The notes under the pieces were generated by a model. It saw only the letters and a list, made by a program, of their open reading frames with translations, was not told the DNA's origin and made no database searches. From assembly GCA_902523435.1 (NCBI GenBank), contig CABYZM010000016.1, positions 1 to 35,197 of the forward strand: 35,197 bases of DNA, given 5' to 3'. Position numbers and translations under genes: made by a program. Source of the stretch: an uncultured SAR116 cluster alpha proteobacterium. GTDB lineage: Bacteria; Pseudomonadota; Alphaproteobacteria; Puniceispirillales; Puniceispirillaceae. Within the stretch, counting starts at the first letter, position 1, and the number at the start of each line of letters is the position of its first letter. Shown piece by piece: positions 12,296-14,833 of this stretch.

Positions 12296-12838
12296 TTAGG
12301 GGCAGGCTTTATCCAGGAAATTTTTTGCTGCGGTGAAGCCAGACAAAGAATATTCATCAATGGTTTTGTTATTGCGTGATGACACGCCTGTCACTATTAA
12401 CTTGGAGCCCCGTTTCATAGCTGCTATCAGTCTCATATCATCTTCCGGCCCCTGTGACCAAGCACGGTTGTCTAATGTGAACAGGGTTGCACTTTTCTTA
12501 TCAATGGAAAAATCAACCTCTGACTGCTTTTTATATCTGTAGCCCGCTAACACAGACACAACATCTCGCTCTGCCTTGCCTGGACCATGCGAGACGAAAA
12601 CACGGGTTTCGCCACGATTGGCCCGGTCATAATCTCCACGCAACTCTTTTGGTACGCTTGACATAAAGCAAATCCGGCCTTTGGCCGTTTCCTGCTTATA
12701 GATCATCCAATCCTTGAATCCCTTAAGCTCTTCAGTTTTTGCCTGAACTTGCCCTATGACCATTGTTACACACAGAACCCAAAGACACAAAACCGCAACA
12801 CCATATCTGCCCGTCATAACTTTCCCCGTTTTTGACAT
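12296..12838 (-). CDS. Invasion-associated locus B (IalB) family secreted protein
   Basis: This 180-residue protein has an N-terminal hydrophobic segment (about residues 12-32, ending QVQA) that looks like a signal peptide. The mature part begins with FKDWMIYKQ, and CFMSSVPKE follows. The later FVSHGPGK region, the YRYKKQSEVDFSIDKK segment and the C-terminal Cys pair up with alphaproteobacterial IalB-like proteins. The name derives from Bartonella invasion, but homologues are common in free-living alphaproteobacteria and the role here is unknown. An alternative start is the Met at residue 8. The gene is upstream of rlmN on the same strand (96 bases apart) and diverges from the ECF sigma gene across 194 bases. 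Confidence 0.72.
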   Translation of the reverse strand: MSKTGKVMTGRYGVAVLCLWVLCVTMVIGQVQAKTEELKGFKDWMIYKQETAKGRICFMSSVPKELRGDYDRANRGETRVFVSHGPGKAERDVVSVLAGYRYKKQSEVDFSIDKKSATLFTLDNRAWSQGPEDDMRLIAAMKRGSKLIVTGVSSRNNKTIDEYSLSGFTAAKNFLDKACP

Positions 12839-13032
12839 AAATTTACCAGATTATGAAAAGACCTGTAGCCCATGTGGTGAAGAATCGCAAAACTTTTGTC
12901 ATGGAGCAAGGCTTTTTCATGAAACCCATATAAAGAAAAAGTGGCATTTTCATGTTTGAATTTCATAATGATGCAAATGAGACATCACTTTTTGTGCAAA
13001 ATCCCCATTTTTGATAGGCGGAAACTAGAAAA

Positions 13033-13695
13033 ATGTATGAAAATCGACCTGAAATGTATTTTCAACTTGTAAGTGAGCTCGCTGTCCCGTTAACTAAAGT
13101 CATGGGAACTGGCTACACAACTGTCAAACCGAACGGTCTGACTAAATGGGATAATTTACTCGTGCGCGTCGGCCGCGAACGCGACAGAGTTGCTTTTGCT
13201 GAGTTATTTGAACATTTTGCACCGAGGATAAAGTCCTTTTTGCTGCGTCTGGGTACAGATGATTCCATCGCTGAAGAGGTTGCACAGGAAGCCATGATTA
13301 TGGTCTGGCGCAGAGCAGAAACTTATGATGTCCGGCAATCAGGGGCCAGCACATGGATTTTTACGATCGCCCGCAACAAACGTATTGATCGTCTAAGACG
13401 TGAAAACAGACCCCTGCCAGATATGAGCGACCCAAGCCTAGCTCCAGATGACGTCGAAACAAGCGATATTTTTGTCTTCAGACAACAAGAAGAGAAGAAA
13501 ATTCGCCACGCTTTGAAAAATTTACCCGAAGAGCAAGCCAAAATGATCTTTTCTGCGTACTATGAAGAAAAGTCACATAGAGAAATTGCTGATGAGAGCG
13601 GAGTCCCTCTTGGAACTGTGAAATCGAGGATTAGATTAGCACTAAATAGGTTACGCGCTCACTTGGACGAGCCTGAAGGAATATGGAAGTCATGA
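13033..13695 (+). CDS. rpoE: ECF RNA polymerase sigma factor, RpoE/ECF11-like
   Basis: This is a 220-residue group 4 sigma factor. Region 2 runs from about residue 50: RVAFAELFEHFAPRIKSFL, then EEVAQEAMIMVWRRAETYD, STWIFTIARNKRIDRLRRE. Region 4 at about 150-215 includes LPEEQAKMIFSAYYEEKSHREIA and VPLGTVKSRIRLALNRLR, a helix-turn-helix for the -35 element. Sequence and the adjoining ChrR-type gene match the singlet-oxygen RpoE/ChrR system of Rhodobacter. About 40 residues precede the conserved region. ATG 13033 has a loose AGGCGG upstream, while internal Mets at 13054 and 13102 are alternatives, so the true start is uncertain. Its TGA overlaps the anti-sigma ATG. Confidence 0.9.
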   Translation: MYENRPEMYFQLVSELAVPLTKVMGTGYTTVKPNGLTKWDNLLVRVGRERDRVAFAELFEHFAPRIKSFLLRLGTDDSIAEEVAQEAMIMVWRRAETYDVRQSGASTWIFTIARNKRIDRLRRENRPLPDMSDPSLAPDDVETSDIFVFRQQEEKKIRHALKNLPEEQAKMIFSAYYEEKSHREIADESGVPLGTVKSRIRLALNRLRAHLDEPEGIWKS

Positions 13696-14357
13696 ACGAA
13701 CAAGCAACATTAAATACGCAAGTACTTGATGCTCTGCTCCTCGATTATGCAACGGGCGCGCTTTCCCGTCCACTTGAGCTATTAGTTGAAACACATCTGG
13801 CGATGAATGAAAAAAGTAGCCGGTCAATGCGAATGCTGATGCAATTGGGCGGCATATTGCTTGAAGATTCAGAGCCCGTTTCGCTGTCAGAAGGCGCGCT
13901 TCAAAACGTAATGTCACAGCTAAGCCAGATTGAAAAAGAGACAGATGAGATATTTTCAAGAGTAAGTGCGCATAACGAATGGTTACCGCATCCCATTGCC
14001 AATTATGTGCCTGAACCAAATTGCAAACAAAGCTGGCGCCGAGCAGGAATTGGCATTCTTGAAACAGATATCAATTTCGGTGAAGTCGGCGGTAAAGCAA
14101 AGATTTACCGAATTGCTTCTGGCACGGCTGTGCCTATCCACTCCCATACGGGGGTAGAGGTAACATTGGTGCTGTCAGGCGGATTCACAGACGAAACCGG
14201 CAGCTATGGTCCTGGCGATATTGCTATCCAAGAAGCTGGTAGTGAACACCAACCCGTTGCTGATGATGATGGGGAATGTATGGTCTTGGCCGTAAATGAG
14301 GGCGAAATCAAGTTAACTGGTCCGCTAGGCCGTGTTTTGAATCTGCTGGTGAATTAA
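13692..14357 (+). CDS. chrR: ChrR-type cupin anti-sigma factor lacking most N-terminal zinc ligands
   Basis: The gene has 221 residues. The start at 13692 forms an ATGA overlap with the sigma stop; a frame-matched ATG at 13683 is less likely. The N-terminal domain aligns without gaps to Rhodobacter sphaeroides ChrR (DALLLDYATGALS, then VETHLAM). However, of the four zinc ligands His6, His31, Cys35 and Cys38, only His35 here is kept; the others are Gln10, Asn39 and Ser42. The C-terminal cupin keeps His150, His152, Glu156 and His186 with the spacing of ChrR His141/143, Glu147 and His177, plus LVLSGGFTDETGSYGPGD. The protein should hold the sigma factor inactive in the cytoplasm. Whether it does so without zinc is open. 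Confidence 0.9.
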   Translation: MNEQATLNTQVLDALLLDYATGALSRPLELLVETHLAMNEKSSRSMRMLMQLGGILLEDSEPVSLSEGALQNVMSQLSQIEKETDEIFSRVSAHNEWLPHPIANYVPEPNCKQSWRRAGIGILETDINFGEVGGKAKIYRIASGTAVPIHSHTGVEVTLVLSGGFTDETGSYGPGDIAIQEAGSEHQPVADDDGECMVLAVNEGEIKLTGPLGRVLNLLVN

Positions 14358-14371
14358 ATCTTTTTTTCTTG

Positions 14372-14833
14372 TCAAAGGGCTAGGCTTGTTAGGCTGGCAA
14401 CAGCGATCAGGCTGAGATGCAGGCGTAATGGCCGCATCCAGACTGGCCATATCTGCTCCCGAAACAACTTCTGATCAATCTGTAAAGCAGCCAGAAAACA
14501 CAGTGACAGAACTACTGCACCAACTTTTACCGGCAGCATCAGGGTCACCCAGCCTAAAAGAGACGGGCAAACAGACCAGATAAGCCAGGTAGAATCAGAG
14601 CTCCCATTTGCATTAGGGCTCGTGATCACCCGGCCCCAATGCAACCCTCCCAAAAAGCTGAGGATAATAGCCCCATAACTGAGCAGAAGTTGGGCTGGCG
14701 CAAGACCCAATACGGCCACCTGCTGGCTTGCAGCAATCGCGCCACACAAAAACGGAAGCGCTCCTCCATAACCTAGGACACGTGCTATTAACACTGTCTT
14801 TACCGGGGCGACGCAAGGATCTGATTTGGTCAT
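14372..14833 (-). CDS. DUF3429 family membrane protein
   Basis: This 153-residue protein has four to five predicted membrane segments. The GYGGALPFLCGAI segment near the N-terminus, LLSYGAIILSFLGGLHWGRVI in the middle, and SVCPSLLGWVTLMLP are characteristic of DUF3429. No enzymatic motif is visible and the function is unknown. The ATG at 14833 is preceded by AAGGA. It starts only three bases after the stop of the upstream TesA-like gene, implying one transcript. It converges on the anti-sigma gene with 14 bases between stops. Confidence 0.82.
   Translation of the reverse strand: MTKSDPCVAPVKTVLIARVLGYGGALPFLCGAIAASQQVAVLGLAPAQLLLSYGAIILSFLGGLHWGRVITSPNANGSSDSTWLIWSVCPSLLGWVTLMLPVKVGAVVLSLCFLAALQIDQKLFREQIWPVWMRPLRLHLSLIAVASLTSLAL

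Follow-up and report, generated by a model that had tools for sequence, protein, structure and literature searches.

Here, we show by homology searches, alignments, phylogenetic trees, dN/dS estimates, predicted structures and promoter searches that the ChrR protein of SAR116 bacteria, which lacks the N-terminal zinc site, is a real, clade-wide variant of the known ECF11 sigma/ChrR system. The protein is described from the window, the whole stretch of 35,197 nucleotides that was analysed, which is contig C16 of a fragmentary assembly that is 64% complete. We favour, with a probability of roughly 0.7, a reading in which this variant of the pair combines metal-free sequestration of the sigma factor with signalling through a metal-bound cupin. 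Protein contacts would hold the helical anti-sigma domain in shape, helix 3 being capped by Asn39 and Ser42 in place of the Cys35, Cys38 and zinc of ChrR, and the domain would sequester the sigma factor without metal; the metal-bound cupin domain would take up the stress signal, singlet oxygen or an organic hydroperoxide, after which ChrR would be turned over and the sigma factor set free.

The chrR gene (13692..14357, forward strand) encodes 221 residues, arranged as an N-terminal anti-sigma domain (approximately residues 1-80) and a C-terminal cupin-like domain (approximately 98-221). Its product begins with MNEQ, and its ATG shares four bases with the stop codon of the sigma gene (ATGA, 13692-13695). 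The ChrR family profile TIGR02451 matches residues 12-220 with 154.3 bits against a cut-off of 124.5, the Pfam profile Cupin_7 matches the C-terminal domain (E 7e-12) with its His-His-Glu-His set, and the closest solved relative is ChrR of R. sphaeroides (2z2s_B, phmmer E 6e-33). The overlapping SigE-like gene provides the ECF11-type sigma partner typical of ChrR family members. The ZAS motif, H/C-x24/25-H-x3-C-x2-C, is absent, as its positions read Gln10, His35, Asn39 and Ser42 in a domain with at most one Cys. Sequence thereby places the protein inside the ChrR family and, on the motif that defines them, outside the ZAS proteins.

Both phmmer and a multiple alignment concur with the gap-free N-terminal alignment to ChrR given in the first-pass annotation. 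Gln10 (codon 13719..13721) stands in the place of zinc ligand His6, His35 (13794..13796) matches His31 and is the sole survivor of the four N-terminal ligands, and Asn39 (13806..13808) and Ser42 (13815..13817) replace Cys35 and Cys38, all four codons being on the forward strand. The cupin metal ligands (14139..14249, forward strand) were likewise described correctly as intact, since His150 (14139-14141), His152 (14145-14147), Glu156 (14157-14159) and His186 (14247-14249) align with H141, H143, E147 and H177 of ChrR.

Full-length ChrR was found in 25 of 136 genomes of the order Puniceispirillales, all 25 within one family, and every one of these orthologues reads x-His-Asn-Ser at the four columns, where x is Gln, Thr, Glu or Asp. 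The loss is thus clade-wide, and none of the 25 keeps the cysteines, so that the check on homologues proposed in the first-pass annotation came out in favour of its reading. With the four columns left out of the tree, the 25 proteins form one clade with support 100. His35, Asn39 and Ser42 do not vary across the 20 orthologues that were aligned, some of which are as little as 55% identical to the window protein, and this invariance is, as judged on the alignment, beyond chance. For SAR116 pairs where dN/dS was estimable, it is 0-0.03 in the N-terminal domain, 0.15-0.44 in the linker and 0.05-0.13 in the C-terminal domain, which indicates strong purifying selection on the N-terminal domain as the most constrained part of the protein. 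The earlier description of the zinc site as dismantled holds with regard to the loss of ligands; the decay it implied does not, as a conserved H-x3-N-x2-S is found instead.

What receives the stress signal in a ChrR of this kind? In R. sphaeroides, zinc in the N-terminal domain is needed for inhibition and zinc-ligand mutants fail, according to the part of a 2019 review that cites Newman 2001 (PMC6852236). The same review describes that ChrR without its cupin inhibits and gives no singlet oxygen response, and that cupin residues Glu147 and His177 are required for this response, and it states that what the N-terminal zinc does in the response is not known (PMC6852236); ChrR is degraded upon stress (PMC6852236; PMC3818230). 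Singlet oxygen reacts rapidly with a model peptide of the N-terminal zinc site, and in 2019 the site was put forward as a sensor (PMC6432622). The N-terminal zinc and the cupin are the two candidate sites of singlet-oxygen sensing, and SAR116 ChrR makes the choice between them testable, as homologues that naturally lack the zinc site, keep the cupin and have an apparent ECF11-type regulon separate the two candidate sensors without mutation. SAR116 ChrR has no N-terminal zinc-thiolate that could act as the sensor, so the cupin would be the receiver of the signal. Signalling via the cupin only, an option raised in the first-pass annotation, is plausible by analogy, since the ligands that R. sphaeroides needs are retained and target promoters persist. 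More tentatively, and at somewhat below even odds, the repeated natural loss of the N-terminal zinc with cupin and regulon kept might mean that this zinc is structural and not the sensor, and that singlet oxygen or its lipid products are read by the cupin alone; SAR116 ChrR would then offer, ready-made, a variant minus the rival sensor.

A changed response logic, in which the pair has lost its sensing of singlet oxygen while the cupin reads another signal such as organic hydroperoxide or superoxide, is less likely. The N-terminal site is a proposed singlet-oxygen sensor, so a protein without it may have given up that function; the Stenotrophomonas ChrR pair protects against superoxide and not against singlet oxygen (PMC11832516); and no autoregulatory promoter of the ECF11 type was found ahead of the SAR116 sigma operon. 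Nonetheless, the cupin ligands for the R. sphaeroides singlet-oxygen response are all retained, and both the target promoters and the cfa/DUF3833 cluster are still in place.

This conserved SAR116 cluster of lipid-modification genes encodes an FAD oxidoreductase, DUF1365, cyclopropane fatty acid synthase, DUF3833, a SnoaL-like protein and an SDR; in Shewanella, the phr-cfa operon is part of the predicted core regulon (PMC4336711). The promoter form tested, T[AG]ATC[CT]-N16-CGTAA, is the ECF11 type with the Shewanella spacing of 16. Ahead of DUF3833, agreement at spacing 16 averages 9.95 matched positions out of 11 across 22 genomes with ChrR versus 7.08 across 12 genomes without, these being related genomes in which promoter and ChrR presence may reflect one lineage event. 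The gain occurs only at spacing 16, with a rank-sum p of 1e-6 that is partly post hoc, as the position was spotted in a small number of genomes before further ones were tested. Exact copies are found in the window genome ahead of DUF3833 (C20:1608-1634, forward strand) and ahead of the SDR operon (C20:4244-4270, reverse strand). Genome-wide in SAR116, the canonical TGATCC-N15-17-CGTAA shows no enrichment over reversed controls and the total counts of the relaxed form are not clearly enriched, and for this reason the promoter claim rests on position. DUF1365 was rejected as a ChrR-linked marker, as it occurs with or without ChrR. The complete SAR116 genome G013 (2753527 bases, one contig) has the cfa/DUF1365 cluster, and neither a full-length ChrR nor an ECF11-type promoter before DUF3833 was found in it. 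Overall, the SAR116 sigma/ChrR system looks functional on these sequence features.

The sigma gene (13033..13695, forward strand), whose stop overlaps the chrR start, has SigE of R. sphaeroides as its best PDB match (2q1z_A, E 2.5e-47), and its ECF11 label reflects this match and not a call by the official classifier; region 4 of the SAR116 sigma is intact. Its start is uncertain, lying at 13033 or at a conserved internal MG(T/S)G methionine at 13102, and the N-terminal extension (13033-13110), approximately 35 residues ahead of the SigE-like part, differs between genera. The order ialB / sigma-chrR / DUF3429 is retained in every SAR116 locus of sufficient length, with the IalB-family gene (12296-12838) always divergent from sigma and the DUF3429 gene (14372-14833) always convergent after chrR. 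Between the divergent ialB and sigma genes lies an element, AATCGCAAAACT...GCAAG (12883..12910, no strand assigned), that is shared by most of the SAR116 genomes carrying sigma-chrR. Its single copy per genome in this form rules it out as a promoter of the regulon, and it is not an ECF11 promoter; possibly it is a promoter or regulator site for ialB or sigma. A second conserved block, TTTACC(A/G)GATTATGAAAAGACC (12840-12870), lies near the ialB start, and its complement resembles an ialB -10 region. Rfam gave no RNA element within 12800-14400.

We infer from family, operon and constraint that SAR116 ChrR inhibits its sigma factor and releases it upon stress. Could the N-terminal domain instead have ceased to inhibit, the protein having another role or partner? 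The failure of the R. sphaeroides zinc-ligand mutants speaks for this, as does the existence elsewhere in the family of zinc-free members without an adjacent sigma gene. It is nevertheless improbable, considering that every SAR116 chrR copy overlaps or abuts the sigma gene, that the N-terminal domain is where constraint is highest, and that sigma-type promoters co-occur with the pair. As inhibition in R. sphaeroides requires the N-terminal zinc, its loss in SAR116 would have to be compensated.

Such compensation may be provided by the fold itself. The AlphaFold2 model of the window protein shows the class I anti-sigma fold, a ChrR/RseA-type helical bundle, and its top Foldseek match is ChrR 2q1z (E 3e-14, whole chain), with a loose placement of the two domains (rmsd of about 8 Å to 2q1z). 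Predicted helices span residues 6-21, 26-38, 40-58 and 69-91, which leaves Asn39 as the lone non-helical residue ahead of helix 3, at its N-cap, and Ser42 at position N3. In the model of a zinc-type relative, L035, with helices at 22-34 and 36-53, Cys35 is the lone residue between the helices and Cys38 is at N3. Given these matching positions, Cys35 and Cys38 appear to have been replaced position for position by residues capable of capping a helix, in models of moderate confidence (mean pLDDT 74.5 for the window protein and 72.3 for the relative) built without sigma. In other zinc-free ChrRs the Asn39-equivalent column is Asn, Asp, Ser or Thr in 26 of 44 cases against a background of 18%, with a nominal p of 2e-9 that is too small as the sequences are related. 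Helix capping by Asn39 and Ser42 thus probably stands in for the zinc clamp. That the subfamily folds without zinc, one of two options put forward in the first-pass annotation, is well supported by the clade-wide loss, the near absence of Cys, purifying selection and the predicted ChrR fold with both residues at the helix-3 cap.

The N-terminal domain might still hold a metal through other residues, for instance His35 together with acidic side chains and Gln, Glu or Asp at position 10, and the invariance of His35 despite the loss of three ligands would fit such a site. We regard this as very improbable: with 0-1 Cys and 1-2 His in the entire SAR116 domain, no alternative Cys2His2 site is possible, and position 10 is Thr in nine orthologues. 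Sequencing error or gene decay, for which only the fragmentary state of the window genome speaks, is refuted by the agreement of 25 separate genomes, near-complete ones included, by synonymous differences among orthologues at the four site codons and by the low dN/dS.

The oddity implied in the first-pass annotation proves overstated, as the loss recurs across the ChrR family and zinc-free anti-sigma domains are common (PMC7406223). Sampled Proteobacteria gave 176 distinct ChrR-family proteins; HHCC is present in 104, and the full site is missing from the other 72, of which 47 come from outside SAR116, a proportion that gives no prevalence because weak hits were deliberately over-sampled. A few of the 47 may still hold metal via altered ligands (e.g. 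HHKH, YHCS). The cupin ligands are kept in all 176, in searches that favour proteins with an intact cupin. The ChrR tree requires 16 changes between zinc and zinc-less states, at least five of them forced by well-supported branches, the exact number of losses being uncertain as deep branches are often weakly supported; with a smaller sequence set, a single clade of all zinc-less proteins was rejected (AU p 2e-5). The trees indicate that zinc-free anti-sigma domains arose repeatedly within the family, and zinc-free ChrRs would show a route from a zinc-stabilised to a zinc-free domain. No sigma gene was found immediately ahead of a set of zinc-free ChrR-like proteins (L071, L072, L074-L076, L185, L186, L189, L190, L196 and L197); many of these cluster in the tree, possibly as a ChrR subfamily whose partner or role differs. 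We found no earlier report of a zinc-free SAR116 ChrR in the literature searched, which covers few subscription papers.

How does the SAR116 pair compare with known systems? The other zinc-free TIGR02451 proteins (e.g. L126, L109, L072 and L036) resemble SAR116 ChrR in having lost the zinc site and in having the cupin ligands, but differ in their replacement residues and hold separate tree positions. In class I anti-sigma domains, approximately 44% (28% of soluble ones) lack Hx3Cx2C and some groups are mixed (PMC7406223); that survey concerns class I domains generally and is not specific to ChrR/cupin proteins, whereas here the loss is traced inside one family in which a second metal site is retained. 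The anti-sigma domain of E. coli RseA (1or7) is zinc-free with the same helical fold as ChrR (PMC6852236) and reads His-Asn-Pro-Glu at what seems to match the start of helix 3 of SAR116 ChrR, a correspondence drawn by eye and not by superposed coordinates; RseA is, however, membrane-bound, cupin-less and of another sigma group. Shewanella, unlike SAR116, has an ECF11-type promoter at its sigma operon (PMC4336711). In conclusion, SAR116 ChrR and the ChrR of the R. sphaeroides ECF11 sigmaE-ChrR pair (2z2s, 2q1z) share full-length homology, the two-domain layout and the cupin HHEH set, and in both cases the operon includes a SigE-like sigma, the target promoters are of the same type and the target genes are similar, while SAR116 differs in the replacement of three of the four N-terminal zinc ligands and in a sigma operon that lacks the ECF11 promoter.
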